Origin: Mycolicibacterium poriferae
GTDB lineage: Bacteria; Actinomycetota; Actinomycetes; Mycobacteriales; Mycobacteriaceae
Direction of reading: 5' to 3'
Length of the DNA stretch: 64,000 bases
Assembly: GCF_010728325.1 (NCBI RefSeq)
Contig: NZ_AP022570.1
Span: 806,001-870,000 of the forward strand
A model generated the notes under the pieces. That model was not told where the DNA came from. It was given only the letters and a program-made list of their open reading frames with translations, and searched no databases. The position numbers and the translations under genes were made by a program. Shown piece after piece: positions 35,574-63,126 of the stretch; position 1 is the first letter of the stretch; each line of letters starts with the position of its first letter.

Positions 35574-35617
35574 GACCCTCGACACTGCAATGTTCCTCGC
35601 GACGCCGGGAGGCAGAC

Positions 35618-36919: not shown

Positions 36920-36978
36920 GAAATTTCTTTCGCGGCCTTGTAACGCCGGGCTGTGAGAGGTCGATACACGGGATAGCT

Positions 36979-37025: not shown

Positions 37026-37060
37026 CTGTTCCGTGCTACCTCCGGCGCTACAGTCCAGGC

Positions 37061-37993: not shown

Positions 37994-38039
37994 CGTTTAA
38001 CCCCTCTGGTGTGAGAAGCATCACAGGGGTAGCATCGAC

Positions 38040-38160
38040 CGCACGACGGGTTCGGGAGTGACCTATCCGAAGAGCCGAACAAGGGATGAAAGTCGGCCGC
38101 GCGAGACTGATGTGACGCGCCCACTGTCCTCCCGAACCCGCCCTTATGTGCTGTCTTAGC
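38040..38160 (+). ncRNA. Candidate F6-like small RNA (ncRv10243/SfdS position)
   Basis: In M. tuberculosis the SigF-dependent small RNA F6 lies between fadA2 and fadE5, on the fadA2 strand. Here the same interval, downstream of the inserted LLM gene, contains a non-coding structured region. A perfect 12-bp stem CGGGTTCGGGAG (38047-38058) / CTCCCGAACCCG (38129-38140) encloses two inner hairpins (ATCC...GGGAT and GCGCG...CGCGC). A SigF-like promoter is possible upstream: GGTGT at 38008 and GGGTA at 38027. That promoter overlaps a terminator-like hairpin (38000-38030) of the LLM gene. The ends are approximate. The assignment rests on position and structure; I cannot align it to the known F6 sequence. 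Confidence 0.5.
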
Positions 38161-38256
38161 CGCTCTTTTCGGCCGTGGTAACCCACGAGCCGTCACACCC
38201 CGCGCGCAGTCGCACCGTGTGACCAGTGTCCGATTGAGTACGGATGCACCCCGGCC

Positions 38257-38315
38257 CGACGAGATCCGACTTCTGCTGAGGACTTCTCGCGGAATGTCTG
38301 CAGAACTCGGCTCTC
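38257..38315. repeat. Long-stem dispersed palindrome, copy 2 (degenerate right arm)
   Basis: The first 20 bases are identical to copy 1 at 15746-15765. Left arm GAGATCCGACTTCTGC (38261-38276) pairs with GCAGAACTCGGCTCTC (38300-38315) with two mismatches. It lies five bases before the fadE5 terminator, again at a gene end. Confidence 0.75.
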
Positions 38316-38319
38316 AACG

Positions 38320-38354
38320 CAAGACGCCCCCGGGAAGAGTCCGGGGGCGTCTTG
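38320..38354 (-). terminator. Strong hairpin downstream of fadE5
   Basis: CAAGACGCCCCCGG pairs with CCGGGGGCGTCTTG, a perfect 14-bp stem with a 7-base loop, 18 bp after the fadE5 stop. There is no U-tract, as is common for mycobacterial terminators. Confidence 0.8.
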
Positions 38355-38372
38355 GTCGGTTGGGGCGAGCGG

Positions 38373-40208: not shown

Positions 40209-40260
40209 GGAAATTCCTCCTCGTCGAGAACGCCACGTGCGGTTGGGTACTCGGGACAAG

Positions 40261-40300
40261 TTACCCACCAGTAACTGTGCGTAACTATACCGGCTGGTAA
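40261..40300 (-). promoter_or_regulatory. fadE5 promoter flanked by two TTAC...GTAA operators
   Basis: A minus-strand -10 box TATAGT lies at 40289 to 40284. Site 1, TTACCCACCAGTAA (40261-40274), lies just downstream of the expected transcription start. Site 2, ATACCGGCTGGTAA (40287-40300), overlaps and lies upstream of the -10. The two are 26 bp apart and resemble the fabG4/fadA2 palindrome, fitting cooperative repression by one TetR-type protein. Confidence 0.55.
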
Positions 40301-40447
40301 CTTCAACGCAAGATGACTGTGGGCGATTTCCCGCCCCCGACCAACCGAGCGGTTGGCCGACCTGCGCTTCGTCGCGCTTGCGGGCCTCTGAGCTGCACTT
40401 TTCCTGATTTGTGATGCTGGTCACGTGACGCTGGATATGGTGTCCGA

Positions 40448-42909: not shown

Positions 42910-45900
42910 TCATTCGGTGACAGGTGGTTCCTCCTGCGGGGCGGGCTCGGGTGTCTCGGCGTCCGGCAGCTGCCCGACGAGGTACTCGGCCAACCCGCCG
43001 ATGGTCGGATAGTCGAACACCGCGGTGGCGTTGATCGTGAACGCGCCACCGAACTGGCTGTGCAACCGGTTGCGCAGTTCGATCGCCATCAGCGAGTCCG
43101 TCCCGAGGTCGAGGAACCGACTGGTCGCGGCCGGCGGTTGAGCCAGCCGCAGGAAGTTCTGCACCTCGCGCTGCAGGAACTCGGTGACGAACCCGGCCCG
43201 CTGGGGCACCGGGATCTCCTGCAGCTGACGCAGCAGCTCGCTGTCCCCGGTCGTCTCCCCGGCGGCGCTCGGCAGCACGAGATCCAGAATCGGCGGACGC
43301 GCACTGCCCAGCACCTTGGCGGCACGCTGCCAGTTGGCCTTGAGCACCGTGGCCTGTCCGGTGCCGTTCGCGACCACCTCGGCCATCGCGCTCAGCGCGG
43401 CGGACGGCTCCAGCGGGATCAGACCCTGGGCACTGATGTTGGCCACCGCGGCCTCGGAGGAGGCCATGCCGCCCTGCGCCCACGGCCCGAAGTTGATGCC
43501 GGTGGCCGGCAGCCCCTGCGCGCGTCGCTGCGCCACCAGGCCGTCGAGCAGCGCGTTGGCCGCCGCGTAGTTGGCCTGGCCGGGCGAGCCGAACAGGCTC
43601 GACACCGACGACGACACGAGGAAGAAGTCGAGGTCGTCGTCGCGCGTCAGATGGTCCAGATGGCAGGCGCCGAATGCCTTGGGCGCCAATGTGGTCCGGA
43701 ACCGCTCCAGGCTCTGCTGGGACAGCAGTGCGTCGTCGAGGACACCGGCCAGATGTGCCACCCCCGCCAGCGGCGGCAACTCCGTGCGGATCCGCTGCAG
43801 CAACGCGGCCACCTCGGCGTCATCGCCGACGTCGGCGGTAAAGGTGTGCACGCGGCACCGGTACCGCTCGGTGATCTCGTCGATCACCCGCTGGGCGTCG
43901 GCATCGGGGGCGCGTCGGCTGGTCAGCACGATGTCCCCGGCGCCGAGCTGGGCCAGATACGCCGCGGTGTGCAGGCCGATCGCACCGAGTCCACCAGTGA
44001 CCAGGTAGCTGTGGTCGGGGCGCGGCTGCAGCGGGTGGGGGATCTGGACCACGATCTTGCCGATGTGGCGCGCCTGCTGCATCCGTCGGAACGCGGCCCT
44101 GGACTCCGTGATCGGGTAGATCTCGGCGGGCAGCGGTGCCCACTCGCCGGTGCCCAGCCCCTGCGACACCTCGGTCAACAGCCGGTGGATGTGACCGGGG
44201 TCCTGCAGCGTCGTGACATCGAGCGCGACGATCTCGTAGGCGATGTCCGGCCGGGCGGCGGCCATCTGTTCGGGGGTCCAGATGTCGCGCTTGGCGATCT
44301 CGGCGAAGCGACCGTTCGGAGCCGTGGCCCGCACCGTCGCCTCGACGAACCCGTCGTTGGTGAGGCTGTTGAGCACCACGTCGACGCCGGCGCCGTTGGT
44401 GTCGGCCAGGATCTGGTCGGCGAAATCCGTGCTGCGGGAGTCGTAGACGTACTTGACGCCCATCTTGCGCAGCGTGGCGCGCTTGAACGTGCTCGCGGTC
44501 GCGAACACGGTGGCGCCGCGTTGCTGCGCCATCTGGATCGCCGCCAGGCCGACACCGCCGCTGGCGGCGTGGACGAGGACGCGTTCCCCAGGCTGGATCT
44601 GCGCCCAGTCGAACGCCAACCGCACCGTGAGCGCAGCGGCCGGAATGGTGGCCGCCGCGACCGGGCCCAGCCCGTCGGGTACCGGAGCCAGCAGCTGTGC
44701 GGGCACGTTGAAGCGGCTGGAGAAGGCGCCCTGCATGAAGCCGTAGACCCGCTGACCGACCTCCAGGCCGTTCACGCCGGCCCCGACCTGGGTGACGATG
44801 CCGGCGAAGTCGCCGCCGATCGGGCCGGGGTCGCCGGGGTAGAGGCCCAGGACGTTGAGCACGTCACGGAAGTTCAGCCCCGCGGCCTCGACCCGGACCT
44901 GCACGTAGCCGTCGGCCGGCGGTGCCACCTCCACCTCGGACAGCCGCAGGTTGTCGATCGCGCCGCGCTCGGTGGGCGCCAGCACGTAGTCACCGGCCCG
45001 CGGCACCGCCAGATGACCGCTGCGTGCCCACGGCAACAACCGCGAGGCCAGCAGCTTGCCCTGCCGAAGCGCGCACTCGGGCTCCGTCACGGGGTTGCTC
45101 AGCAGTCCGGCCAGCGCCGACACCGCTTCCGCCGACCCGTCGACGTCGACCAGCCGGCAGCGCAGCGCCGGCTCCTCGTTGATGGTGGTGCGGCCCAATC
45201 CCCACAGCGCGGCCTGTACCGGGTCGACGGGCTCGCCGGACTCGCAGGCGACCCCGCGCTCGGTGACGATCCACAGCCCGTCGGGCAGGGTGACCGGTGC
45301 GCTCCCGGAGCCGCCCTGCACCGCGTGCACGGCGCTGAGCAGGTGACCGATCTCGGCCTCCAGCCGCGCTGCGACGTGGTCGGCGTCCGCGTTCTCGGTG
45401 GGCGCCGCGGCGCGCCAGACGACGCCGGAGAACGGCAGGCCGCGGTCCCGCGCCTCGGTGAGAACCTGACCCAACGGGGCCGCGTCGGGCCCCCGGTCGA
45501 GCGGGATGCAGCCGGGCACGGCCGCCGCCAGTTCGTCGAACCCGGCGATCAGCCAGGTGCCGGCGGCCTCGTCCTCGCGCGGCTCCGGTGGCGCGACCTC
45601 ATGCCAGCCCAGCGTGTAGAGCAGGCGGGTGGCGTCCCCGCCGAGGCCGCGCAGCAGCGCCTCGCGCGGTGCGCGTTTGACCGTGAACTCGCGGATCCCG
45701 CCCAGCAGGCGGCCGTCGCGGTCGACGAAATCGAGGTCGAAGACCTGGGTTTCGCTGTTCACCTCCGCCGCGTGCCACCTGGCGCGGCAGTAGAACCTGC
45801 GCGGCATCTTCTCCCGCAGCGTGACCTGCCCGTACCGCAGCGGCAGGAACAGGTCGTTGACGCCCTGCTCGGCGGCCAGCAGCGCCGGGAACGCCGGGAA

Positions 45901-48900
45901 CGCGACGCCGGTGCACAGGTCCATCAACACCGGGTGCATCGGTTCGGAGCCGAGCTGTTCGGCGAGCTCCGCACCCACCAGGATGTCACCGATCGCTTCG
46001 CCGTCGCCCAGCCACAACGACTTCAGCGACCCCGACCAGGTCGGTCCCCACGCCAGCTCCAGATCTGCGAACGTCTCGAACAGCTCCTGAGGCCGCATGC
46101 GGGTGCACCGCTCGATCGCGTCGTCGACCGCCTCGGCCTGCTCGGCGGGCTGCTCGTCGTCGAGCCCGGCGGCCACCGTGCCTTCGGCGTTCAACGACCA
46201 GTCGGTGTCGCGCTGACCGTAGGGCCGGCTGTGCACCTGGAACGTCCAGCCGCCGGTCTCCTGCGGGTGCAGCGTCAACTGGACCTCGCGAGAGCTCTTC
46301 TCCGGCAGGATGATCGGCTCGTAGAAGAAGACGTCCTGCACGCGTGCGGGGGTACCGACCGCGGCCAGGGCCATCGCGGCATAGGTCGCACCCGGAACGA
46401 CGACGGTGCCGTAGATGACGTGGTCACTGAGCCAGGGCTGCGACCGGACCGACAACCGGCTGGTGTACACGGTGTCGCCGGACGCGAGATCCTTGGCGCT
46501 GCCCAGGATCCCGGAGGTGGTCGCACCGCCGCCCTCCATCGCGACGCCGGCCGATCGGGGCCAGAAGCGACGGCGCTGGAACGGATAGGTCGGCAATTCG
46601 ACGCGGCGACCGGCACGGCCGTGGACCGCCGAGAAATCAGGACGGTGGCCACCGATGTACGCGGCGGCCAGGGCATCAGCGATCTGACGGCGGTCGGCGA
46701 CACCTTTGCGCAGCGAGACCACGGCCCGCGGTGCGGCCACGTGCTCGGGCCACACCTGGACCGCGGCCCCGGTCAACACCGGCTGCGGCCCGATCTCCAT
46801 CAGGATCGAGCACCCCAGCGCCGCCACGGTGCGCACACTCTCGGCGAACTGCACCGGCTGGCGCGAATGCCGGCGCCAGTAACCGGCATCGATCGGGGTC
46901 TGGGCGGTGAGCACGGTGCCGGTGCGGTTGCACACCAGCGGAAGTGTGGGCGAGGCGAACGTCATCCCCGCCGCGTAGGACTCGAACTCGTCGAGTACCG
47001 GGTCCAACAACTCGGAGTGGAACGCGTGACTGGTTTCCAGCCAGGTGCAGCGGATGCCGTCGGCGCTGAACCCGGCGACGATCTGCTCCAGGTCCTCGCC
47101 GGGGCCGGAGAGCACCGTGTTGGGACCGTTGTAGGCCCCGATCGACACTCGCGGGAACTGGGCGGCGGCTGCCTCGACACGGGTGGCGTCGGTGAACACC
47201 GCCACCATGCGCCCACCCGGGGGCAGGCTGCCGAACATCCGGCCGCGTTCGGCCATCAGCCGCACCCCGTCCTCGAGGCTGAACACGCCGGCCACGCAGG
47301 CCGCCGCGTACTGGCCCACGCTGTGACCGAGGACGACGTCCGGTTCGATGCCCCACGATTGCCACAGCCGCGCCAGACCCATCTCCACGGCGAACAGCGC
47401 CGGCTGCGCGAAGGACGTGTGCCGCAACCGTTCTCCGGCCTTGCCGCCGGTTTCACGGTCGGTGGCGAACAGCACCTCCAGCAGCGGATCGGCAAGCAGA
47501 TCGGCGACCGCCTCCGCGCAGCGGGTCACCGTGTCGGCGAAGACCGGTTCGGTGTCGAACAGTTCCCGGGCCATCCCCGGGTACTGGCTGCCCTGTCCGG
47601 TGAACAACCATGCCGTCGTGGGACGGTGGGTGTGCTCGCCGCGCACCACCCCGGGGCGCAGCCGATTCTCGGCCAGGTCGGTCAGCGCCGCGCGCGCACC
47701 GTCGATCGAGTCCACCACCAGCGCGGCGCGGTGCTCGAAATGCGACCGCCCCGTTCCGGCCGTCAGGCACACGTCGCTCAGATCGGCATCCGGGTGGGTG
47801 CTCAACCAGCTGTCGTAGCGCTGCGCCAAGGTCACCAGCGCTTCCGGTGAGCGTGCCGACAGCGGCAACACGCGCACGGCGGAGCGGTCCGCGGTGGGCT
47901 GCGGCGCAGTATCCGGTGCGCCAGAAAGCTCAGCTGCGGCCGGGGCAAGTTCCGGCTGGGGCGGTTCCTCGACCAGGACGTGGGCGTTGGTGCCGGTGAA
48001 CCCGAACGAGCTCACCCCGGCCCGGCGTGGCCTGCCGTTGGCCTGCCACGGCATCGCCTCGTCCACCACCCGCACGGGCAGCGAGTCCCACGGGATGTGC
48101 GGCGACGGCTGCTCGAAGTGCAGGCTCTGCGGCAGCACCCCGTGCTGCAGGGACAACACCACCTTGATCAGACCGGCTGCGCCGGAGGCGGATTCGAGAT
48201 GGCCGATGTTGGTCTTGACCGATCCCATCAGCAGCGGCCGGTCGGCGTCGCGGGAGTCGCCGTAGGCGGCTGCGGCGGCCTGCACCTCGATCGGGTCGCC
48301 CAGCGGGGTGCCCGTGCCGTGTGCCTCCAGGTAGTCGACGTCACCGCCGGACAGCCCGGCGCGGGCCAGGACCGTCGAGATGAGCCGCTGCTGGGCGCCG
48401 CCGTTGGGAACGGTCAACCCGCTGGAGGCGCCGTCCTGATTCACCGCGCTGGCGGGGATGACCGCACTGATTCGATCCCCGTCGCGCACCGCGTCGCTGA
48501 GCCGTTTGAGCACCAGGACGCCGCATCCCTCGCTGCGGACGTAGCCGTCTGCGGACGCGTCGAAGGTCTTGCACCGCCCGGTGGGGGACAGCATGCGGGC
48601 GCGGGACGCCGCGACGACGGTGACGGGACTCAACAGCACGTTGACCCCGCCGGCCAGCGCGAGATCGCAGTCGCCGGAATGCAGTGCCTGGCAGGCCTGG
48701 TGCACGGCGACCAGCGCCGAACTGCATGCGGTGTCCACGGCCACGGCGGGCCCTTCGAAGCCCAGGGCGAAGGCGACCCGGCCGGAGATCGCGTTGAGCG
48801 CGTTGCCGGTGATGAAGTGCGGTTCGATCTTGTCGATGGGCTCGGCGGAGAGCAGGTGGGCGTACTCGTTGGCGGCTACTCCCACGAACACCCCGGTGCG

Positions 48901-51900
48901 GCTGCCGCGCAGGGCCGACGGCGCGAATCCCGCTCTTTCCAGCCCCTCCCACACCGTCTCCAGCATCAGCCGCTGCTGCGGCTCGATCCAGACCGCCTCG
49001 CGAGGTGAGATACCGAAGAACTCGGGGTCGAACCCGTCGATCTCGTCGAGGAAACCGCCCGACCGGGTGTACGTCTTGCCCGCGGCGTCGGGATCGGGAT
49101 CGTAGAACTCGTCGATGTCGAAGCGGTCCTCCGGTACCTCGCGGATGGCGTCGACACCGCCGGCCAGCAGGTCCCAGAAGGCCTCCGGGTTGGGTGCGCC
49201 GGGGAAGCGGCAGGACAGGGCGACGACCGCGATCGGCTCGTCGGTCCGGGCGGCGACCACGGTCGCCGGTTTGGTGGCCGCCTGGCCGCTGAGTCCGAGT
49301 ACGTCGGCCAGCAGGTAGTCCGCCACATCGGAGAGCCTGGGGTGATCCATCGCCAGGGTGGCCGGGATCTGCGCGCCCACAGCCTGTTCGATGCGCTGGC
49401 GCAGTTCCACGGCCATCAGAGAATCCATGCCGAGATCGAAGAACCCGGCATCCTCGCGGATCTCGTCGGCGTCGATGCGGGTCACCTCGGCCACCGCGTC
49501 GCGCAGGTGGTCGATCAGCAGCGTGCGGCGCTGCTGCACAGGGGCATTGGTGAGTTTCTCGACCAGAGCCGTCCTCCCGGACGGAAGCGCCGCCACCGGC
49601 TGTGCGGGCAGACCGTGCTGCATCTCGGCCAGGAATGCCCGCTGGCCCGCCTGCTGATACAACGGCAGGAAGCGGGCCCAGTCGATGCGGGCCACCACGC
49701 CGTGCCCGGACGTGGTCGTCGCGACGTCGGCCAGCCCGGCCAGGGCGTCGGCGGGCGAGAGGGTCTGCACTCCGCGCTGCGCCAACCGCGCGCGGGACTG
49801 TTCGTCGGCCATGCCGGCCGACCAGGGGCCGAAGTTCACGCTGATCCCGGCGATGCCCTGGTCTCGCTGATACCGGCACAGTCCGTCGAGGAAGGCGTTG
49901 GCGGCGCCGTAGGCGGTCTGACCGAATCCACCCCACACGGAGGCGATCGAGGAGGTGCTGAGGAAGAAGTCGAGCTTCAGGTCCGCCGCGGCCTCACTGA
50001 GATGCCAGGCGCCCCAAACCTTTCCGGCGAAGACACGGTCGGTTTCGGCGTCGTCGAGGGCGCTCAACGGGGTGGTGCCGACCTCGCCGGCCGCATGCAC
50101 GATGCCGGCCAGCGGCGGAAGGTCGGCGGCGATGCCGGCCATCAGGCGCGCCACGTCGTGGGCGTCGGCGACGTCGGCGGTGATGACCTGCAGCGTGCAC
50201 CCGTGCTGCGCGCGCAGCGCGTCGATCCGCTGCGCGGTGGCGTCGTCGGGCGCGCGTCGGCTGGTGAGCACCAGATGTCCGGCGCCGTGGGCGGCGAGGT
50301 ACCCGGCGATCTCCAGTCCGATCGCCCCCAGTCCACCGGTCACCAGATAGGTGGCGTCGTCGCGCAGCGGCAGCGGGTCTGCTGCGGGCCGGCCGGTCCG
50401 GCGGACCAGACGGGGGACCAGCACCGCCTGGTCGCGGATCGCGACCTGGTCTTCCCGGGCGGCCGAGTCGGGTGGGCCCCCGATCAGGTCGGTGAGGCGG
50501 GCCCATTCGTGCGGCGCGGTGTCGCGGTCTGCGGCCAGGTCGGCGAGACCGCCCCACAGCTGCGGCAGTTCCAGAGCCGCGGCGCGGCCGAAGCCCCACA
50601 GACAGCTCTGCTCGGGCGCCACGGTGTCGGCGTCGGTGGCGTGTTGCGCGCCCCGGGTCACCAACCAGATCGGGCTGCGCAGTTCGGCGGCCGCTGCCGC
50701 ACGGAACAACCGGCGGGTGCCGCTGAGGGTGCGGTGCTGCATCCGCAGCAGTGAGCGCATCGACGGGCCGGCCGCCGCGGACGCGTTCGCGTCCAACGCG
50801 GCGAGGTGCACGACACGCACTGCCGAGCCATCCTCGGCCAGGGTGCGCAGCGCGGCGGCGAGCTGCTCGGCGTCGGCATCCGATGCCGGCAAGGCGACCG
50901 ACTCGCACCGCTGGCCGCGTGCGGTCAGCACGTCGACGAGGGGCTGCGCTGCCGCGGGGTCGCCGACCAGGACCCAAGTCGCGCTCGCGCTGGGCGAGGG
51001 GCGGAACGACGAGACCTCCTGCCAGTGGATCTCGTAGCGGTCATCGGTGATCGCCTGGGTGGTGCGTTGCTGATTGTGCTGTGCGGCAAGCTTGTTCAGG
51101 ACAGCCACCGTCTGCTGGTCGTCCGCGCTGTCGAGCAGTGCCGCGAGCTCGGCGATGCGCCCGTCCTCCAGGAGCCCGACGGCCTCGGTGCGCGGACCGC
51201 TGCGGCGTTGTGGCTCAACCGAATCGGCCGTGCCGTCGCGACGGTCGGAAAACCAGTACTGGCGCCGCTCGAACGGATAGGTCGGCAGATCCAGCTTGCG
51301 TGCCTCCGGCCGGCGTAGCGCGGCGAAGTGGGGCAGGTGGCCCAACACGTAGGCGTCGGCGAGGGCCTCGGTGATCTGGCGGTGGTCCGCGGTGGTCGGG
51401 CGCAGAGACGCGATCACCCGCGGCGTGGTCGCCGGGTCGGGCCAGGCGCCCAGAGCCGCGGCGGTCAGCACCGGTCGCGGGCCGATCTCGACCAGCACCT
51501 TGCAGTTCATCTCGGCGAGGGTGCGCACGCTCTTGGCGAACTCGACCGGCTGGCGTGCGTGCCGCCGCCAGTAGGTCCCGTCGAGTTTCACACTGCGCCC
51601 CAGCGCGGCCCCGGTGCGGTTGTCGATGAGGATCCGTTGCGGCTGGTTGACCTCGAATTGCGCTGCGAACGACTCGAATTCGTCGAGGATAGGATCGAGC
51701 AGCGCGGAGTGGAAGGCATGGCTGGTGTCGAGCCAGTCGCAGCGCACCCCGGCAGCGACCAGTCCCGAGGTAGCCTGCGCGAGGTCGTCGGCCGGTCCGG
51801 ACAACACGGTGTTCGCACCGTTGTAGGCGGCCACCGACAGGGTGGGGAACTCGTCGGTCAGCGCTTCGACCCGCTCCGGGGCCGTGAACACCGCGACCAT

Positions 51901-54030
51901 CCGGCCACCGGCGGGCAGGCTGGCGAACAGGCGGCCGCGCTCGGCCATCAGCCGTGCCCCGTCGGCGAGGTCGAAGACGCCGGCCACGCAGGCCGCCGAG
52001 TACTGGCCGACGCTGTGGCCCAGCACCACGTCCGGCTCCAACCCCCACGACTGCCACAGCCGGGCCAGGCCCATCTCCACCGCGAACAGAGCGGGCTGCG
52101 CGGCAGACGTCTGGCGCAGCTCCTCGTCGCTGGACCCGAAGATCACGTCGAGCAAAGGCTTCTCGAGCACGTCGGCGACCGCGTCGGCACACTGCCGCAG
52201 CGTGTCGGCGAACACCGGTTCGGTGTCGAACAACTCGCGGGCCATGCCGGGGTACTGGCTGCCCTGCCCGGTGAACAACCACGCCGTCTTCGGCGACTCG
52301 TGGGACTCGCCGCGCACCAGGCCCGGAGCGGGCCGATCGTCGGCGAGCGCGCCGAGGAGTTCGAGCGCCGCGTCCTTCGAGTCGACCACCAGTGCCGCGC
52401 GGTGCTCCAGGTGGGCACGGGCCGTGCCCGCCGTGTGGCACACGTCGGCCAGCGTCGCCTCGGGATGCTCGGCCAGCCAGCTGCGGTAATGCTCGGCGAG
52501 GGTTGCCAGTGCGGCCGGGGTGCGGGCGGACAGCGGCAGCAAGCGGTAGGAGGCCTCCGGCCCGGCCGCCGTGATGGTGGCCGGCTCCGCCGCGGGGTCC
52601 ATCAGCGGCCCCGCCGCGAGGCCCGTCAGCGGCTCCGCCGCGAGGCCCGTCAGCGGCTCCGCCGCGAGGTCCATCAGCGGCTCCGCCGCGAGGTCCATCA
52701 GCGGCTCCGCCGCCGGGGCCTCTTCGAGGATGACGTGGGCGTTGGTGCCCGCGAAGCCGAACGAGCTGACCCCGGCGATGCGGGGTTGGCCGTTGCGCTC
52801 CCACGGCACGGGATCGGTGACGACCTCGACCGCCAGCCGGTCCCACGGGATGTGTGGCGAGGGCTTCTCGAAGTTGAGATGCCGCGGCAGCATCTCGTTC
52901 TCCAACGACAGGATGACCTTGATGACCCCGGCGATCCCGGCGGCCGCCTCGAGGTGGCCGATGTTCGTCTTGACCGAGCCGATCAGCAGCGGCCGGTCGG
53001 CGGGGCGCCCGGCACCGAGCACCGCACCCGCGGCCTGAGCTTCGATCGGGTCGCCCAGCGACGTCCCGGTGCCGTGGGCTTCCAGGTAACCGACGTCGGC
53101 GGGGTCGACCCCGGCGCGATTCAGCGCATCGGTGATCACCCGTTGCTGAGCCACGCCGTTGGGCACCGTCAGCCCGCCCGAGGCGCCGTCCTGGTTGATG
53201 GCACTGCCGCGGATGACCGCGCGGATCCGGTCGCCGTCGCGAAGCGCATCCTCGAGGCGTTTGACGACGATGACGCCGCAGCCCTCGCCGCGCACATAGC
53301 CGTCGGCGGCTGCGTCGAACGTCTTGCACCGGCCGTCGGGCGCCAGCATGTGCGCGCTGGAGAAGGTGATCATCGTGGCGGGCGTGAGCAGCACGTTGGC
53401 CCCACCGGCCAGCGCCAGGTCGCACTCGCCGAGGCGGAGCGCCTGGCACGCCTGGTGGATGGCGACCAGCGACGAACTGCAGGCGGTGTCGACGGCGACC
53501 GCAGGCCCCTGCAGCCCCAGCCGGAAGCTGATCCGGCCCGCGGCGGCCGCGTTGGACGTCCCGATGGCCATGTAGGCCTCGATCTCGGGGTAGGTGAGTT
53601 CGTCGGAGGCCATGCCCAGGTAATCGTGGGTGGCCAGCCCGACGAACACGCCGGTGTTGCTGCCGGCCAGCGACGTCGGCGCGATCCCGGAGTGCTCGAC
53701 CGCGCGCCACGCGGTCTCCAGCAGCAGCCGGTGCTGGGGGTCCATCAACCGGACCTCGCGGGTCGACATCCCGAAGAACGGAGCGTCGAAGCCCGTCGCG
53801 TCGTCGACGAAACCCGCGCGCCGGGTGACCACCTTGCCCGGCGTGCCCGGCTCCGCGTCGAAGAACTCGTCGACGTCCCAGCGGTCACCGGGGACCTCGG
53901 AGATGGCGTCGCGGCCTGCCCGCAGCATGTCCCAGAACCGGTCGGTGTCCGGGGCGCCCGGGAAGCGCGCCGCGTAGCCGATGACGGCGAACCGCGGGGC
54001 CTGCCCGGTCGGCTTCTCGGCGGATCCCAT
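42910..54030 (-). CDS. pks: Bimodular type I polyketide synthase for polyphleic acids (TPP Pks)
   Basis: 3706 residues. Module 1: KS (Cys184 in DTACSSS, His319, His359), AT (Ser673 in GHSVGQ, HAFH 771-774), KR (TGGLGAIGL about 1231, Tyr1374), ACP (Ser1537 in LGMDSL). Module 2: KS (Cys1769), AT (Ser2237, HAFH 2335-2338), DH (His2537 in [10 protein letters not shown], Asp2704), ER ([13 protein letters not shown] about 3154), KR (about 3342, Tyr3488), ACP (Ser3646 in LGTDSL). HAFH indicates malonyl, fitting unbranched phleic chains. There is no DH in module 1 and no thioesterase. The ATG at 54030 has GGGAG upstream; the longer frame to 54186 is leader. It matches the M. smegmatis TPP synthase (MSMEG_0408) in size and context, divergent from papA3-mmpL10-fadD23-PE. 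Confidence 0.93.
52589..52708 (-). repeat. Five in-frame 24-bp tandem repeats in the pks KS1-AT1 linker
   Basis: Units start at 52589, 52613, 52637, 52661 and 52685. They encode eight-residue units AAEPLMDL or AAEPLTGL, at residues about 440-480 between the first ketosynthase and acyltransferase. Module 2 has no such repeat in the equivalent linker. Confidence 0.9.
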
Positions 54031-54071
54031 GCCGTTGTACTCCCTTGCTTCGACGGTGAGAATCTGACTGC

Positions 54072-54084
54072 ACAGGTCACCTGT
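54072..54084. promoter_or_regulatory. Palindrome in the pks-papA3 divergent promoter
   Basis: ACAGGT-C-ACCTGT, a perfect inverted repeat 41 bp upstream of the pks ATG. A minus-strand TAGTGT (54119 to 54114), a possible pks -10, lies upstream of it. The remaining 54085-54261 region contains GGCAC-N8-GTGCC and no convincing gene. The regulator is unknown. Confidence 0.4.
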
Positions 54085-54261
54085 CGCGCCCTGAGATCGA
54101 CTTCCCCCGACGGACACTATGGCACGTGTGCAGGTGCCGTGTGGGGTGTTGCTGTCCCGGGTTGGGGCGGCGCGGAACGGTGGCACCGGTATGTTGATCC
54201 AGCAGTAGTGGGCGCCGGTTCCGGAGTCGGCTGAGCGGGGTGTATTCGGGAGGGTCGAGTT

Positions 54262-55683
54262 TTGCGCATCGGCAAGATCACGGTTGGCGGACTTGACGAA
54301 TGGTCGCTGACCCCGGGTGCTGTCGTCTCATGGCATCCGACGGCGGAAGCGCAGGACAAGGCCCGGCAGGCGCCGGTCAGTGCGGTTCCGGTCAGCTACA
54401 TGCAGGGCCAGCATCTTCGTAACTACTGTGACCGTGCCGCGGCGGGTTTGAACTTCTCCCGCCAGATCATCGCCAGCTGTGACGTCGCGGGCCAGTGCGA
54501 CATCGCGGCGATGGACCATGCCGTCAACGCCTACCTGCGGCGGCACGACACTTTTCGCAGCTGGTTCCGACATGTCGGTGACAACGAATTCATCCGCCAC
54601 GCCCTCGAGGATCCGGCCGACATCGAATTCGTCCCGATCGAGCACGGCGTGATGACCGTCGAGCAGATTCACGAGCACGTGGTGGCCATCCCGAATCCGT
54701 TGGAATGGGGTTGTTTCACGTTCGGTGTCATTCAGAACGACGAATTCTTCACGTTCTTCGCCTCCATGGACCACGTGCACGGGGACGCCACCCTGATCGG
54801 TACCACGATGCTGGAAGCCAACGGAATGTATTCGGCGCTCAGTGGCGGCGGATCGGCGCTCACTCTTCCCGACGCCGGCAGTTTCGACGCATTCTGCGTT
54901 CGCGAACGCGAATACACCGCGGATCTGGATGTGGATTCACCCGGTGTGCAGGCGTGGATCGATTTCGCCGAGAACAATGACGGCGGTTTCCCCGAATTCC
55001 CGCTGCCGCTGGGGGACCCGCAGGAATCGGTGAGCAGCAGAATGACGTCAGAAGTGCTGATGGACGCAGCGCAGACGGAACGTTTCGATGCCGCCTGTGC
55101 CGGCGCGGGTGCGCGTTTCGTGGGCGGATTGTTCGCCTGCCTCGCCCAGATCGAGCACGAATTGACCGGCGCGTTGACCTATTACGGGTTGACTCCGCGG
55201 GATTCGCGCAACGCCGGCGACAATTTCATGACCCAGGGGTGGTTCACCGGGCTCATCCCGATCACGGTGCCGATCGGGGCGGCGTCATTCGGCGAAGCCG
55301 CGTGGTCGGCCCAGTCGTCGTTCGATTCCGGTTTGAACATGGCGAAGGTGCCGTATTACCGGGTGCTCGAGTTGGCGCCGTGGCTGAAATGGCCGCAACC
55401 GAATTTCCCGGTCTCGAATTTCCTGCACGGCGGCGCCGCTCCGCTCAACGCCATTCTGGCGGCCGGTGACATGGGCCTGGCCGACAACATCGGCATCTAC
55501 CCCGACGGCCGGTTCTCGTATCAGCTGACGATTTACATATTCCGCTACGGCGAGGGCACCGTGATGGCCATCATGCATCCGGACAATCCGGTCGCCGAGA
55601 AGTCGGTCACGCGTTATCTGCAGGCGATGCGGTCGGTGTGCGGGCAGGTCGCCGACATCGGTCATTGGGGACGCGTCGCCTGA
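54262..55683 (+). CDS. papA3: Polyketide-associated acyltransferase PapA3
   Basis: 473 residues, TTG start with GGGAGGG upstream, beginning MRIGKITV like M. tuberculosis PapA1/PapA3. The condensation-type active site is DHVHGDA, with His171 and Asp175 in the HxxxD spacing; the usual following Gly is Ala. In TPP synthesis PapA3 acylates trehalose to give the diacyltrehalose core on the cytosolic side. It is the first gene of the papA3-mmpL10-fadD23-PE operon, with mmpL10 36 bp downstream. Confidence 0.92.
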   Translation: MRIGKITVGGLDEWSLTPGAVVSWHPTAEAQDKARQAPVSAVPVSYMQGQHLRNYCDRAAAGLNFSRQIIASCDVAGQCDIAAMDHAVNAYLRRHDTFRSWFRHVGDNEFIRHALEDPADIEFVPIEHGVMTVEQIHEHVVAIPNPLEWGCFTFGVIQNDEFFTFFASMDHVHGDATLIGTTMLEANGMYSALSGGGSALTLPDAGSFDAFCVREREYTADLDVDSPGVQAWIDFAENNDGGFPEFPLPLGDPQESVSSRMTSEVLMDAAQTERFDAACAGAGARFVGGLFACLAQIEHELTGALTYYGLTPRDSRNAGDNFMTQGWFTGLIPITVPIGAASFGEAAWSAQSSFDSGLNMAKVPYYRVLELAPWLKWPQPNFPVSNFLHGGAAPLNAILAAGDMGLADNIGIYPDGRFSYQLTIYIFRYGEGTVMAIMHPDNPVAEKSVTRYLQAMRSVCGQVADIGHWGRVA

Positions 55684-55719
55684 CGGGGCGCAGCGAGGTG
55701 AGAGCGACATGCAGGTGAC

Positions 55720-58700
55720 ATGCGGAAACTAGCCGGCGTCGTGGTGCGCTGGCCCTGGGCCGTGATCGGGGTCTGGGTCGCGATGGCGCTCGCGCTGCCG
55801 CTGACGTTTCCCTCGCTCGGCGAGATGGCCGAGCGGCACCCGCTGGTCATCCTGCCCAGCGACGCGCCGTCGAGCGTCACCGCCACCAAGATGGCCGAGG
55901 CGTTCGGCGAAACCGGGTCGGACAACCTGATGGTCGTCGCGTTCATCAACGAGTCCGGGCTGACGCGGGACGACGAAGCGGTCTACCGCGACGTGGTGGA
56001 CGCATTGCGCGACGACATCACCGACGTGGTGTCGACGCAGGACTTCATCAGCACCCCGCAGCTGCGGCAGTTCATGACCAGCGAGGACAAGACGACCTGG
56101 GTGCTGCCGGTCAGCCTCGACGGCGAATTGGGCACCCCGCGGTCCTACGAGTCGTTCAACCGGGTGTCGACGATCGTCGACCACCACACCGCCACCGGCG
56201 CCTCGGGCGACGGCCTGGACGTCTATGTCACCGGGCCCGCGGCCACCGTCGCCGACCTGACCGTCGCCGGCCAACAGGACCGCCTGCCCATCGAGATCGC
56301 CATCGCGGTGCTGGTGCTGGGCGTGCTGCTGCTGGTCTACCGCAACCCGCTGACCATGCTGTTGCCGTTGGTGACCATCGGGTCGTCGCTGCTGATCGCG
56401 CAGGCCGTGGTGGCCGGCTACTCGCAGCTGACCGGCTCAGGGGTGTCCAACCAGTCGATCGTGTTCCTCAGCGCGATCATGGCCGGCGCCGGGACGGACT
56501 ACGCGGTGTTCCTGATCAGCCGCTACCACGACTATCTGCGCTCGGGCGCCGGTTACGACCAGGCGGTCACCCGGGCGATGATCTCCATCGGCAAGGTCAT
56601 CACCGCGTCGGCGCTCACGGTGGGCATCACGTTTCTCGTCATGAGCTTCGCCCAGATGGGGGTGTTCCGGACCATCGGGGTGTCGGCGGCGATCGGCATC
56701 GGTGTCGCCTACCTGGCCGGGGTGACGCTGCTGCCGGCGATCCTGGTGCTCGCCGGGCCACGCGGCTGGGTCAAGCCGCGACGGGAACTGACCGCCCGGT
56801 TCTGGCGCCGTTCCGGTATCCGCATCGTCCGGCGGCCGGTACCCCACCTGGTCGCCAGCGTGCTGGTGCTCGCGTTGTTGGCCGGCGGCGCGACGCTGGC
56901 GACCTTCAACTACGACGACCGCAAGGCCGTCGCGGACTCCGCGCCCAGCTCGGTGGGTTACGCCGCCCTGGAACGCCACTTCCCGATCAGCCAGTCGATC
57001 CCGCAGTACGTGCTCGTCCAATCGCCGCACGACCTGCGCACCCCCCAGGCGCTGGCCGACCTGGAGCAGATGGCCTCCCGCATCGCCCAGCTGCCCGACG
57101 TCGCCCGGGTCATGGGCGTCACCCGCCCGCTGGGTGAGGTGCCCCCGGAGTTCCGGGCGACGTTCCAGGCGGGCATCGTCGGTGACCGGCTGGCCGCCGG
57201 TTCCGCCCAGATCGGCGAGCGCTCCGGAGACCTCAACGAACTCGCCGACGGGGCGAACACGCTGGCCGACACCCTCGACGACGTGCGTGCCCAGGTCGAC
57301 GAGATCGCGCCCAGCCTGCAGAGCCTGATCGGCACGTTCTCGTCGGTGCGCGCCGAGTACGGCGGCGAGAAGCTGGTGCGCGACGTCGAAACCGCGGCCA
57401 AGCTCGTCGACAGCGTCAACAAGCTGGGCCTGTCGATGGGGGTCAACTTCCGCGCCGTGCGCGACATGTTCGCCTGGATCGGACCGGTGCTCACGGCGTT
57501 GCAGGGCAACCGGGTGTGTGACGCCAACCCGTCCTGCGTCGAGACCCGCGCCCAGTTCGAAAAGGTGATCGCGGCCCGCAACGACGGTCGCGTCGACGAG
57601 ATCAACCAGCTGGCCGGCGAGCTGCAGGGCGTCGACGACCGCCAGAGCCTGACCGCCACCGTGAACAAACTCAACGACGCGCTCGCCACGCTGACCGCGG
57701 CCGCAGCCGACCTGGGGCTGGACTCGCCCGCCGGTGCGCGGGCCGGGCTGGCCGACGTGCAGGACGGCGCTGACCGGCTGGCCGACGGCAGCCGTCAGGT
57801 GGCGGGTGGCGTCGATCAGCTCGTCGAGCAGATCAAGGTGATGGCGGCCGGCCTGGATCAGGCCTCGACGTTCCTGCTGACGATGCGCGCCGAGGCGTCG
57901 GGTTCGACGATGGCCGGTTTCAACATTCCCGCCGAGGTGCTCAACGCCGTGGAGTTCCAGCAGGCCGCCGAGGCGTTCCTGTCCCCGGACGGTCGATCGG
58001 CGCGCTACCTGGTGCAGACCGAGCTGAATCCGTTCAGCCCGGAGGCGATGGACCAGGTCAACGTCATCAGCGACGTCGCCCGCGGCGCGCAGCCCAACAC
58101 CACGCTGTCCGACGCGTCGATCTCGATGGGTGGCTTTCCCGCCGCGCTGCGGGACACCCGCGACTACTACGAGCGCGACATCCGTTTCATCATCATCGTG
58201 ACGTTGATCGTCGTGCTGTTGACGTTGATGGTGCTGCTGCGCTCGCTGGTCGCGCCGTTCTACCTGGTGGGCTCGGTGGTGTTGTCCTATTTCGCGGCCA
58301 TCGGCATCGGCGTGCTGTTCTTCCAGGTGCTCCTGGACCAGCAGCTGCATTGGAGTGTGCCGCCGCTGGCGTTCGTGGTGCTGGTGGCCGTCGGCGCGGA
58401 CTACAACATGCTGTTCGTGTCGCGGATGCGTGACGAGTCGCCGCACAGCGTGCGCTACGGCGTCATCCGCACCCTGGGATCCACCGGCGGGGTGATCACC
58501 GCGGCGGGGCTGATCTTCGCGGCGTCGATGGCCGGGCTGTTGTTCTCCAGCATCGGCATCGTGGTCCAGGGCGGGTTCGTCATCGGGGTCGGCATCCTGC
58601 TGGACACGTTCGTCGTGCGCACCATCACGGTGCCGGCCATCGCCGCGCTGGTGGGCACGGCGAACTGGTGGCCCTCCAAGCCCCCGCAGATCGGACCGCG

Positions 58701-58737
58701 CCGGTCGGAGCCGCGGGCGCCGGCAGAGATCGACTGA
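55720..58737 (+). CDS. mmpL10: RND-family lipid transporter MmpL10
   Basis: 1005 residues, the usual MmpL size. Twelve membrane spans in two halves, each with a large periplasmic domain. The proton-relay Asp-Tyr pairs are present in AGAGTDYAVFLISRYHD and VAVGADYNMLFVSRM. The second periplasmic domain contains a long helical, coiled-coil-like stretch (DLNELADGANTLADTLDDV to DGADRLADGSRQVAGG), typical of the MmpL8/10 branch. In M. smegmatis and M. abscessus it exports the diacyltrehalose precursor of TPP. It sits between papA3 and fadD23. It could be confused with MmpL8, but the gene context favours MmpL10. Confidence 0.92.
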   Translation: MRKLAGVVVRWPWAVIGVWVAMALALPLTFPSLGEMAERHPLVILPSDAPSSVTATKMAEAFGETGSDNLMVVAFINESGLTRDDEAVYRDVVDALRDDITDVVSTQDFISTPQLRQFMTSEDKTTWVLPVSLDGELGTPRSYESFNRVSTIVDHHTATGASGDGLDVYVTGPAATVADLTVAGQQDRLPIEIAIAVLVLGVLLLVYRNPLTMLLPLVTIGSSLLIAQAVVAGYSQLTGSGVSNQSIVFLSAIMAGAGTDYAVFLISRYHDYLRSGAGYDQAVTRAMISIGKVITASALTVGITFLVMSFAQMGVFRTIGVSAAIGIGVAYLAGVTLLPAILVLAGPRGWVKPRRELTARFWRRSGIRIVRRPVPHLVASVLVLALLAGGATLATFNYDDRKAVADSAPSSVGYAALERHFPISQSIPQYVLVQSPHDLRTPQALADLEQMASRIAQLPDVARVMGVTRPLGEVPPEFRATFQAGIVGDRLAAGSAQIGERSGDLNELADGANTLADTLDDVRAQVDEIAPSLQSLIGTFSSVRAEYGGEKLVRDVETAAKLVDSVNKLGLSMGVNFRAVRDMFAWIGPVLTALQGNRVCDANPSCVETRAQFEKVIAARNDGRVDEINQLAGELQGVDDRQSLTATVNKLNDALATLTAAAADLGLDSPAGARAGLADVQDGADRLADGSRQVAGGVDQLVEQIKVMAAGLDQASTFLLTMRAEASGSTMAGFNIPAEVLNAVEFQQAAEAFLSPDGRSARYLVQTELNPFSPEAMDQVNVISDVARGAQPNTTLSDASISMGGFPAALRDTRDYYERDIRFIIIVTLIVVLLTLMVLLRSLVAPFYLVGSVVLSYFAAIGIGVLFFQVLLDQQLHWSVPPLAFVVLVAVGADYNMLFVSRMRDESPHSVRYGVIRTLGSTGGVITAAGLIFAASMAGLLFSSIGIVVQGGFVIGVGILLDTFVVRTITVPAIAALVGTANWWPSKPPQIGPRRSEPRAPAEID

Positions 58738-58801
58738 CCGAGGTCGGCAGTGCTGCGCGAACCATGTGAAACTACGAGACCGAGGCCCTTCCCCGTGCCA
58801 C

Positions 58802-58846
58802 CCCTTATGACGCCAACCCTCATGACGCCAACCCTCATGACCTGTG
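58802..58846 (+). repeat. Three 15-bp tandem repeats between mmpL10 and fadD23
   Basis: Units begin at 58802, 58817 and 58832 with core CCCTCATGACGCCAA; the last is divergent. They lie in the 147-bp gap before the fadD23 GTG, so they may sit in its leader or promoter. Each unit carries an ATGA. Confidence 0.75.
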
Positions 58847-58884
58847 CCACCCCCCATGAGTCGACGAGCTGATACGGACCCATC

Positions 58885-60639
58885 GTGACGACAACGTCTG
58901 AGTCGACGATCCTGTCGATGCTGCACGGCCGTGCCAGTCTGCGGCCCGACGAGATCGCTTTCACGTTCACCCATTACGACCGGGATCCCGCCGGTGTCGC
59001 GGAGAGCCTGACGTGGTCGCAGTTGGCGCGACGGACGATGAACGTGGCCGTGCAGCTGCGGCGGCACGGATCGGCCGGCGATCGGGCGGTGATCCTGGCC
59101 CCGCAGGGCCTGGAGTACATCCTGGCGTTCCTGGGTTCGCTGCAGGCCGGTCTGGTCGCGGTGCCGTTGCCGCTGCCGTTCCCCGGGTCGGGTCACGAAC
59201 GCGTCGGTGCGGTGCTCACCGACACCGAGCCCGCGGTGGTGCTGACGACGTCGGCAGCCGCGGTCGACGTCGGTGACTACGTGGCGAAGGCCGACCTGGC
59301 GTCGCCACCTCAGCTCGTCGAGATCGACGGGCTGGACCTGGACGCCGATCAGGTCGGCGCGGGGCTGGAACCTGTTGGCGCGCAGAGCCTGGCGTACCTC
59401 CAGTACAGCTCGGGTTCGACGCGTCAACCGACCGGGGTGATGCTCTCGCACCGCAACCTGACCGTGAATTTCGAGCAGCTGATGCGCAGCTTCTTCGCGG
59501 CCGCGCCGCTGCCCCCGGACGCCACGCTGGTGTCGTGGCTGCCCTTCTACCACGACATGGGCCTGGTACTGGGGGTGTGCGCCCCGATCCTGTGCGGCCG
59601 GCGCGCGCAGCTGATGAGTCCGGTGGCGTTCCTGGAGAAGCCGTCCCGCTGGGTGCGCGCTCTCGCCGAGAACCCGCATGCGTGGTCGTCGGCGCCGAAC
59701 TTCGCGTTCGACATGGCGGCCCGCAAGACCGCCGACGCCGATCTCGCCGGCCTGGACCTGGGCGGGGTGGTGGGCATCATCAGCGGCGCCGAACGGGTCG
59801 AGCCGGCCACCCTGCACCGCTTCGTCGACCGGTTCGCCCACTTCGACTTCCGCGACCACATGATGCGCCCGGCCTATGGTCTGGCCGAGGCGACGGTGTT
59901 CGTGGCGACGGGAACGTGGGACGAATCGGCGCCGGCGGCGTTCTTCGACGCCGAGGCGTTGGCGCAGCGTCAGGTGCGGCCGTGCCGGGCGGGACAGGGC
60001 ACGGCGCTTGTCCGGTACGGGGTGCCGCAGTCCCCGGCGGTGCGCATCGTCGACGGCGACTCCGGACGCGAATGCGCTGCGGACGCCGTCGGTGAGATCT
60101 GGGTGCACGGCGACAACGTCGCCGACGGGTACTGGGGGCGCCCGCCCGCCGAGCAGGTCGGCTTCGGTGCGACGATCGTCGACCCGTCGCCGGGCACGCC
60201 GGCCGGGCCGTGGCTGCGCACCGGGGACCTGGGGTTCGTGCACGCCGGGGAGCTGTTCGTCGTCGGTCGCATCAAGGACCTGCTGATCATCCGGGGCCGC
60301 AACCACTACCCGGAGGACATCGAGGCGACGGTGCAGGCGATCACCGGCGGCCGGGTGGCGGCGGTATCGGTTCCGGTGCGCGGCACCGAGGAACTGGTGG
60401 CCGTCGTCGAGCTCAAGCGGCCGGCCGACCTCGACAGCGCCGCACACCGCCGGTTCGACGACGTCAGAAGTCAGGTCACCGCGGCGATCTCGACCGCGCA
60501 CGGGTTGAGCGTCGGCGACCTGGTGCTGGTGGCCTCCGGCTCGATCCCGACGACCACCAGCGGCAAGATCCGCCGCGCCGCCTGCGTCGAGCAGTACCGC
60601 AACAACGAGTTCATCCGGCTCGACGCCGAGGCGGAGTAA
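58885..60639 (+). CDS. fadD23: Fatty-acyl-AMP ligase FadD23 (FAAL)
   Basis: 584 residues, GTG start. FAAL class: [20 protein letters not shown] as the P-loop, [26 protein letters not shown], and [19 protein letters not shown] near the hinge; [13 protein letters not shown] contains the C-terminal Lys. FAALs make acyl-adenylate and pass it to a Pks rather than to CoA. In the TPP pathway FadD23 loads the starter fatty acid on the divergent Pks. The end is 38 bp before the PE-type acyltransferase gene. Confidence 0.93.
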
Positions 60640-60677
60640 GGTCTGAGCCAGTGCAGCCGAGTGGGTGGGGGAATGCA

Positions 60678-61829
60678 GTGAGGCGTCTGGTCGCGTTCGG
60701 CACCGCGCTGAGCACCATCGGCGCCGCGGGCTGGCTCGGGTTCGGCACCGCCGCAGCGGACGAGCCCGGCCCCGCGCCGGTCCCGCCGCCGGGGCCCGCC
60801 GCTGCGGCGGGTGGAGCGCCGGCGCTGGGCACCCCGGGACGCGCCTACGCGTTGGGCGGCGCGCACGTGCTCGGGATCCCGTACGACGAGTACATCATGC
60901 GCACCGGCGCGGACTGGTTCCCCGGACTGGAGCGCCAGATCGTCGACTACCCGGCCGGTCAGGTCCAGGGCCACACCCTGGAGCGGCTCTTCCCGGGTAT
61001 CGGCGCCTTCGGGGACCGCTTCGTGCCCGGCCTCGGCCTCGACGGCCCCAGCGTCGGCGAGTCCGTCGACGTCGGTTCGCCCGACACCATCGCCGCGATC
61101 CGGGAGGGCGGACAGGGCACCGCGATCGGTCTGTCGGAGGGCGCGATGGTGCTCAACGACGTCCAGGCGCGCCTGGCCTACGACCCGGCCGCCCCGCCTC
61201 CGGACCAGTTGAGCTTTGCCATGTACGGGGATCCGGTGGCGCGCCACGCCTTCGGCGAGAGTTTCCTGACGCAGAACTTCCCCGTCGGCAGCGTGGTGCC
61301 CTCGCTGGACTATCGGATCCCGGCGCCGGTGGAAAGCCAGTACGACACCTACCAGTTCATCTCCGCCTACGACAGCATCGCCGACTGGCCCGACCGCCCG
61401 GACAACTGGCTGTCGGTGGCCAACGCGATCGTGGGGCTGGCGACCGGCCACACCGCGGTGGCGTTCACCGACCCGAGCATGGTGCCGCCGCAGAACATCC
61501 GAACCAGCGTCAACTCCCGGGGCGCCACGACGACGACGTACATGATCCCCGAGGAGCACCTCCCGCTGGTGCTGCCGTTCAAGTACCTCGGCGTGCCCAA
61601 GGAGACGTTGATCGAGCTCGACGCGGTGCTCAAGCCGTACGTGGATGCCGGCTACTCGCGCAACGACGATCCGGCGACCGCCCCGGTCACCGTGGACCCG
61701 GTCAACGGCTACGACCCGGCGGCCGTCACCGCCCCGGCCACGCAGGCCGCGTTCGGTGGTGGCGCGGATCCGGTGTCGCAGTTGCTCTCCGGTCTGCAGT
61801 ACGTGCTGAACAACCCGCCGACCGGCTAG
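60678..61829 (+). CDS. Secreted PE-PPE-domain acyltransferase of TPP synthesis (PE)
   Basis: 383 residues. N-terminal signal peptide ([18 protein letters not shown] to GTAAADE), a Pro/Ala linker, then a PE-PPE/serine-hydrolase domain with nucleophile elbow [10 protein letters not shown] near residue 155 and a conserved [10 protein letters not shown] segment. In M. smegmatis the equivalent protein transfers polyphleoyl chains to exported diacyltrehalose to give TPP, outside the membrane, like Chp proteins in other trehalose lipids. GGGGGA precedes the GTG at 60678; a GTG at 60651 is the alternative and would add nine residues. It is the last gene of the operon and convergent with the Gap-like gene 9 bp away. 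Confidence 0.9.
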
Positions 61830-61838
61830 TCAGCCCGG

Positions 61839-63126
<1,288 letters not shown>

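Follow-up and report, generated by a model that had tools for sequence, protein, structure and literature searches.

One dehydratase for two dehydrations: a proposed double elimination in the bimodular trehalose polyphleate synthase of Mycolicibacterium poriferae

A stretch of 64,000 nucleotides from Mycolicibacterium poriferae (hereafter the window) carries, on its minus strand, the gene for a bimodular type I polyketide synthase (PKS), here called Pks, which belongs to a locus for trehalose polyphleates (TPPs). The gene raises a question: how does an enzyme with a single dehydratase (DH) make chains that need two dehydrations in every cycle? The initial annotation had posed this problem and offered two ways out, namely that the DH of module 2 (DH2) acts on the intermediates of both acyl carrier proteins (ACP1 and ACP2) while the enoylreductase (ER) is withheld from one of them, or that a separate dehydratase helps. 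The comparisons described here, in which literature statements are drawn from passages of the papers concerned, suggest instead that each round of the two-module synthase probably lengthens the chain by four carbons and leaves one double bond in it, with DH2 eliminating water twice on ACP2.

Pks is encoded by an open reading frame of 3,758 aa when read from a GTG; the likely start is the ATG at 54030, which is residue 53 of the GTG frame and the end of the gene in the initial annotation. Residue numbers follow the GTG frame, from which those of the initial annotation are obtained by subtracting 52; thus, the DH histidine that it named, His2537, is His2589 here. Pfam finds the ketosynthase (KS), acyltransferase (AT), ketoreductase (KR) and ACP twice each, together with one ER and one DH, the latter composed of PF21089 and PF14765 at residues 2561-2845. 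Pfam and home-made hidden Markov models (HMMs) of the domains give the order KS-AT-KR-ACP followed by KS-AT-DH-ER-KR-ACP.

To follow its conservation, 198 genomes of the genus were searched with residues 930-1280 of module 1 (match at E ≤ 1e-40), and 137 of them gave a match, most of those listed being frames of about 3,650-3,830 codons. Sixty loci were fetched, 55 of which contained a full-length two-module protein; with the window, 56 sequences were aligned. The alignment leaves out L059 and L063 because of their additional module, and L062, L065 and L070, in which no frame reaches 3,500 codons. The features of the synthase are as follows.

42910..54186, minus strand: bimodular type I PKS of the TPP locus (open reading frame, Pfam, and an architecture common to 56/56 aligned homologues)
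52717..53994, minus strand: KS1, residues 65-490 (HMMs; active Cys236, His371 and His411 in 56/56)
51457..52296, minus strand: AT1, residues 631-910, with HAFH motif (motif alignment, domain HMMs)
50365..51456, minus strand: AT1-KR1 linker and structural half of KR1, residues 911-1274, without a DH (Lsd14 match, Pfam, spacing)
49687..50364, minus strand: catalytic half of KR1, residues 1275-1500, with the A-type Trp1418 (Trp and Ser1412/Tyr1426/Asn1430 each in 56/56; KR clade with CurG)
49303..49521, minus strand: ACP1, residues 1556-1628, Ser1589 (Pfam and HMMs; Ser in 56/56)
47965..49242, minus strand: KS2, residues 1649-2074 (Pfam and HMMs; sister of KS1 in the KS tree)
46765..47625, minus strand: AT2, residues 2188-2474, with HAFH motif (motif alignment, domain HMMs)
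45637..46527, minus strand: DH2, residues 2554-2850, the sole dehydratase, CurH-type, with His2589 and Asp2756 (Pfam, alignment, PDB match, DH tree)
44032..44991, minus strand: ER, residues 3066-3385 (Pfam, motif alignment, HMMs)
43342..44022, minus strand: KR2, residues 3389-3615, B-type with LDD motif (LDD in 56/56; Ser/Tyr/Asn in 56/56)
42973..43191, minus strand: ACP2, residues 3666-3738, Ser3698 (Pfam and HMMs; Ser in 56/56)

The comparison with other TPP synthases that the initial annotation had suggested gives all ten domains in the same order in the 56 full-length sequences (home-made HMMs, window included). The serine and HAFH columns of AT1 are likewise invariant, and HAFH is read here as the mark of a malonyl-type AT. 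Trp1418 is taken, by rule, as the mark of an A-type KR and LDD as that of a B-type KR. A-type KRs give L-products and B-type KRs give D-products (PMC12828468).

The first claim to be settled is that module 1 has no DH between AT and KR, and here the initial annotation was right. The DH-less module of Lsd14 (7s6c, E 1e-26) aligns with residues 934-1264 from one end to the other, and other KR structures match as well, such as that of a spinosyn KR together with its N-terminal extension (4imp), which aligns to the later part of the region. The distance between the end motif of AT1 and the nucleotide-binding motif of KR1 is 327-384 aa in 56/56 sequences (365 aa in the window), compared with 922-965 aa for the corresponding motifs of AT2 and KR2. 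In a wider set the same gap measures 249-718 aa without a DH (median 353, n=35), 453-1,079 aa with a DH (median 551, n=252) and 761-1,382 aa with DH and ER (median 899.5, n=58), so that the spacing of module 1 is fitting for a DH-less module but, as the ranges overlap at their edges, is no proof alone. A lenient DH search of the AT1-KR1 linker reached E < 10 in 8/56 sequences, the five matches listed having E-values of 0.61-7.5. No DH occurred at the first-module AT-KR junction in any of 55 junctions (53 of the TPP type, CurG and L103, a PKS of an uncultured Rhizobiaceae bacterium); these came from 64 PKS frames in 62 named loci, the other nine frames being truncated at a contig end or split into smaller frames. 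A cryptic DH in module 1 was rejected because of the end-to-end homology with Lsd14, the spacing and the lenient search, and on such sequence evidence the missing DH is confirmed as real.

Phleic acids were reportedly described in 1969 and their biosynthesis is said to have been studied in 1976; judging from the title of the 1969 paper, the double bonds of the M. phlei acid reportedly lie at positions 4, 8, 12, 16 and 20. Published phleates include C36:5 and C40:6 (PMC5902629), which correspond to a C16 chain lengthened by five or six C4 units, each bringing one double bond; these lengths would imply that the two modules are used repeatedly. Proton and carbon shifts of phleate double bonds are given in PMC5524727, and the geometry or position of these bonds was not found in the literature passages at hand, those of PMC5524727 included.

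For such a chain, the sequences themselves give the domain content, the conserved active sites, the CurH type of the DH and the A-type mark of KR1, while the literature supplies the TPP genes, the phleate formulae and the chemistry of CurH. From these we infer the starter route, the order of the reactions, their iteration and the second elimination by DH2 as follows. The FadD23-like ligase of the locus would supply a long acyl starter, which module 1 would extend by two carbons; KR1 (A-type) would then reduce the ketone to a hydroxyl, which stays. KS2 would accept this 3-hydroxyacyl chain and extend it, and KR2 (B-type) would produce a 3,5-dihydroxyacyl chain on ACP2. DH2 would take off the 3-hydroxyl in the ordinary manner and then the 5-hydroxyl via a conjugated (vinylogous) enolate, leaving a 2,4-dienoyl-ACP2, in which the ER would reduce the 2,3 bond; the resulting 4-enoyl chain would go back to KS1, and five or six rounds on a C16 starter would yield C36:5 or C40:6. 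The alternation would be hard-wired by the order of the modules and of the eliminations, and because both eliminations would take place on ACP2 and the ER would reduce the 2,4-dienoyl chain, no withholding or switching of the ER is needed. With bonds at the reported positions 4, 8, 12, 16 and 20, the last one is located as the scheme predicts. Elimination on ACP1 would give the same pattern, so that neither lengths nor positions choose between the models.

The evidence on the enzyme begins with DH2, whose catalytic His2589 and Asp2756 are kept in all 56 sequences. Its best PDB match is the DH of CurH (3kg7, 162 bits, E 2e-46), followed by GphF DH1 (74 bits), CurJ (73 bits), the mycobacterial MAS (54 bits) and PpsC (26-30 bits). 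For CurH, which belongs to the curacin PKS, the formation of dienes from 3,5-diols by successive eliminations has been reported. In a scan of a genome collection of 84,980 species with a CurH-led alignment, the 80 best of 561 confirmed relatives were retained; these include CurH of Moorena (L102), L103, mycobacterial TPP synthases and a fragment from a metagenome-assembled genome (MAG) of Chromatiaceae (L111). A DH search of 396 Actinomycetota genomes gave matches at E ≤ 1e-25 in this genus only (9/396); as at most five candidates were scored per genome, weaker relatives may have escaped it.

A tree of 335 DHs was then built from the protein-collection matches to the DH of L103 (205 in all, 120 of them listed) and the fetched loci, among which, besides the window, eight of the 60 supplied TPP-type members (L032, L036, L050, L052, L053, L059, L061 and L071). 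An earlier sorting of DH motifs by regular expression was dropped in favor of the tree, since it missed the DH of the window and P0056, in which the pattern matched an earlier stretch, and included DACTH sequences of Amycolatopsis. In the tree, a clade of 20 with support 0.95 unites 11 TPP-type DHs, CurH, L103 and seven others. The clade has its own motifs: the position four residues after the catalytic Asp is occupied by Gly in all 11 TPP-type DHs and by Arg in the remaining nine members, whereas 309/315 DHs outside the clade have His or Gln; this outside set was chosen by likeness to the L103 DH, with fetched loci added, and is thus no random sample. The Tyr of the YGP motif is replaced by Trp in the 11 TPP-type DHs (Tyr in 292/315 outside), and the Phe of YGPxF by Trp in the same 11 and by Leu in 7/9 other members (Phe in 311/315 outside). 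Gly2760, Trp2713 and Trp2717 of DH2 are invariant in the 56 aligned synthases. In the DH of a strobilurin PKS, a His that our own reading places at the +4 position is irreplaceable for activity, and the Tyr position, taken here as that of YGP, is given a role in the vinylogous and isomerizing reactions of other DHs, although no such role was found in the strobilurin enzyme itself (PMC12828468).

The second line of evidence is the module that precedes the DH. When the TPP synthases are counted once, the clade has ten representatives, eight of which have an upstream elongation module (that of CurH lies on the neighboring frame). This module is KR-only in 8/8 cases, compared to 20/207 outside the clade (Fisher 3e-8, relatedness ignored), and the difference persists when the proteins are clustered at 50% identity (5/5 vs 5/29, p = 9e-4), 45% (5/5 vs 3/17) or 60% (5/5 vs 14/96). 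The A-type Trp is present in the upstream KR in 6/8 of these cases, against 2/181 DH-bearing upstream modules and 4/20 other KR-only modules. In a tree of 340 KRs, seven of the eight upstream KRs (TPP, CurG, L103, P0002, P0005, P0006 and P0021) fall in a clade of 14 with support 0.96, and 13 of the 14 sit in DH-less modules. The best PDB match of KR1 is the KR of AmphB, which we take to be A-type. One protein, P0006, has two successive KR-only modules ahead of its CurH-type DH-ER-KR module.

Several observations weigh against a double elimination by DH2. It shares only 31% identity with CurH and has a different pocket (Trp2713, Trp2717 and Gly2760 instead of Tyr, Leu and Arg), while CurJ, also a double eliminator, retains an ordinary DxxxQ, so the motif is not needed for the chemistry. 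Two of the ten representatives, P0004 and P0008, place this DH in the first module after a loader made of a fatty acyl-AMP ligase (FAAL) and an ACP, so this type of DH is not linked exclusively to double elimination. Nor is the architecture diagnostic by itself, as 4/20 of the outside DHs after a KR-only module lie in KS-AT-DH-ER-KR-ACP modules with ordinary motifs. Furthermore, the A-type Trp is missing from two of the eight upstream KRs, and the upstream KR of P0007 lies outside the KR clade. The KS domains show no class of KS2: in a tree of 143 KS, consisting of those of the ten clade proteins and 110 random draws, the common ancestor of the KS of the clade spans 135/143 sequences. Finally, the ER could intercept the 5-hydroxy-2-enoyl chain before the second elimination.

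The same KS tree led to the rejection of KS2 as a gatekeeper for hydroxyacyl chains, for which it contains no group. It also places KS1 and KS2 of the TPP synthases as sisters (support 0.72), which points to a module duplication or to KS gene conversion, the KR and DH having separate histories.

The KR and the DH thus keep company across phyla and the KS does not, as would be expected if the hydroxyl made by the KR were the second substrate of the DH; common descent of the KR-DH pair could explain part of the pattern. On balance, we lean slightly towards regarding the pairing of an A-type KR-only module with a subsequent CurH-type DH module as a portable cassette, two hydroxyls for one dehydratase, present in mycobacteria, cyanobacteria and proteobacteria, to which the TPP synthase would have added an ER and reuse, so that each round would form a diene, reduce one half of it and thereby set double bonds at four-carbon intervals.

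The alternative that survives best, although we consider it unlikely, is that DH2 reaches back to dehydrate the 3-hydroxyacyl chain on ACP1 and then acts on the product of module 2 on ACP2, where the ER also acts. As Pks has a single DH, both steps must be its own unless a free enzyme helps, and an ER of azalomycin F module 1/2 that acts on module 3 provides a precedent for reaching across modules. However, the A-type Trp of KR1, found in 56/56 sequences, predicts an L-3-hydroxyl. FosDH1 is reported to convert the D-isomer to the E-product and FosDH2 the L-isomer to the Z-product, neither taking the other isomer. With this specificity, an A-type KR1 means that reaching back predicts Z bonds and a DH that accepts both configurations; moreover, CurH, the closest solved relative of DH2, works on 3,5-diols. 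From the first proposal of the initial annotation, the idea that the single DH supplies both dehydrations stands as the better of its two options, while action on both ACPs with the ER withheld is disfavored, given that DH2 belongs to the clade of CurH, for which 3,5-diol chemistry is reported. Taken together, the DH clade and the type of KR1 moderately favor double elimination on ACP2.

The second proposal of the initial annotation fared worse. It is quite improbable that a free-standing dehydratase, such as the MaoC-domain protein encoded at 33228-34088, presumably HtdX-like, or a Had enzyme of FAS-II, acts on the ACP1 intermediate. The MaoC gene lies 9 kb from Pks, and the genome has 14 MaoC-domain matches, nine of them over the family cut-off. 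Nevertheless, Pks is the only one of the five TPP genes with a dehydratase family (the PE-like gene has no match), the MaoC gene is nearly universal in the genus (196/198 genomes, against 137/198 for Pks) and so does not track TPP, and M. smegmatis lacking HadD, the sole Had enzyme considered, still makes TPP (PMC5902629). Both the MaoC gene and HadD were rejected as partners for these reasons, and the separate dehydratase is left without support.

The last alternative, in which module 1 is a spacer or is used in the first round only while iteration falls to module 2 alone, the ER being idle at times, is scarcely credible: mycobacterial Pks2 and Mas iterate as single modules and an iterative azalomycin module is reported to leave its ER idle in the first of two rounds, yet the Cys/His of KS1, Ser/HAFH of AT1, Ser/Tyr/Asn of KR1 and Ser of ACP1 are invariant in 56/56 sequences, the order of the modules is equally constant, and two modules readily account for one double bond per four carbons.

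Double elimination on ACP2 can also be set against systems already described. CurG and CurH of the cyanobacterial curacin PKS are among the closest, as CurG, directly upstream of CurH, is a DH-less KS-AT-KR-ACP module with the A-type Trp, followed by KS-AT and a DH of the same clade; in the Moorena contig they form two frames, CurH being visible only as far as its DH because of the contig end, whereas the TPP synthase is one protein, has an ER and is probably reused five to six times. Another close arrangement is that of L103 (L103:275-16369), which reads FAAL-ACP-[KS-AT-KR-ACP]-[KS-AT-DH-ER-KR-ACP]-C-A. Its bimodule is colinear with Pks (42.7% identity over 3,814 aligned positions), has a CurH-type DH and starts from a FAAL; unlike Pks, it is fused to the FAAL and to a nonribosomal peptide synthetase, and its frame is cut by the contig end. 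The prediction for this protein is that a fatty acid is extended by a single phleate-like C4 unit and then joined to an amino acid. The Chromatiaceae contig L111 encodes a TPP-like Pks in its C-terminal part only (54% over 1,329 positions), next to a frame that by eye resembles Sel1-type repeats; it may reflect either transfer between phyla or mis-binning.

Among mycobacterial enzymes, Pks2, the synthase of the phthioceranic and hydroxyphthioceranic acids of sulfolipid-1, is a single module that makes methyl-branched products. Module 2 of the TPP synthase aligns over the length of the Pks2 model, NF041183, which scores the whole Pks at 1,890.8 bits, below the cut-off of 2,400. Pks12, the mycoketide synthase of M. 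tuberculosis, is also bimodular and is described as "modularly iterative" (PMC11574752), and Pks likewise has two complete modules in one protein. In contrast to Pks, both modules of Pks12 have the full set of reducing domains, and it yields a saturated, methyl-branched chain. Docking domains join Pks12 proteins head to tail, whereas the tails of Pks are very short, with about 12 residues between the predicted start and KS1 and about 20 behind ACP2. The switchable-ER module 1/2 of azalomycin F shares the departure from the rule of one domain for one module, but there the ER is idle or works across modules, neither of which is needed in the scheme proposed for Pks.

The assignment of Pks to TPP biosynthesis is well founded on gene content, with pks, papA3, mmpL10, fadD23 and pE lying side by side (the last recognized by position only). 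The neighbors of Pks are as follows.

54262..55683, plus strand: PapA3-like acyltransferase of the Condensation family (family match; position of papA3 in M. smegmatis numbering)
55720..58737, plus strand: MmpL10-like transporter (TIGR00833 over cut-off; position)
58885..60639, plus strand: FadD23-like fatty acyl-AMP ligase, proposed to supply the starter (NF004509 over cut-off; position)
60665..62023, plus strand: PE-like gene, 452 aa, without family match (position only)

Other genes near the locus, at 33228-40424 of the window, encode a MaoC protein, a short-chain dehydrogenase and an acyl-CoA dehydrogenase, which we liken to HtdX, FabG4 and FadE5; an acyl-CoA dehydrogenase gene lies within the fetched stretch by Pks in 21/60 loci. 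The gene order of the window from 42910 to 62023 is that of MSMEG_0408-0412 as numbered in PMC10465359, which also contains a domain map of the M. abscessus Pks, and PE has been published as a transacylase.

PapA and MmpL matches accompany Pks in 50 of the 60 fetched loci and are absent in ten, and eight of the 56 aligned sequences come from loci without either. A second set of bimodular Pks, 66-72% identical to that of the window, occurs in L032, L034, L036, L038, L053, L055, L061 and L064, with no PapA or MmpL match in the fetched 20 kb; for seven of these eight, a TPP-type copy was also fetched from the same genome. In L059 (G157:C1:3811631-3831630) and L063, a KS-AT-DH-ER-KR-ACP module is fused ahead of a TPP-like bimodule, again with no PapA or MmpL match in the fetched stretch, which for L063 ends at the contig end.

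The TPP synthase and its genes, the chemistry of CurH, and modular iteration as in Pks12 (PMC11574752) are already known. No statement was found in the literature on one DH serving two dehydrations in this enzyme, nor any paper linking polyphleates with curacin or vinylogous chemistry, in a search that did not extend to the main source, Burbaud 2016; with this reservation, the connection of the TPP synthase with double elimination of the CurH type looks new. If the proposed route is true, the period of the double bonds would follow from the domain content of the synthase, the enzyme would offer a simple system in which to test vinylogous dehydration by an iterative PKS, and the products of similar bimodules in uncultured bacteria would be readable from sequence. 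Since the phages BPs and Muddy require TPPs as surface lipids (PMC10465359), the chemistry of these chains is also of practical interest.

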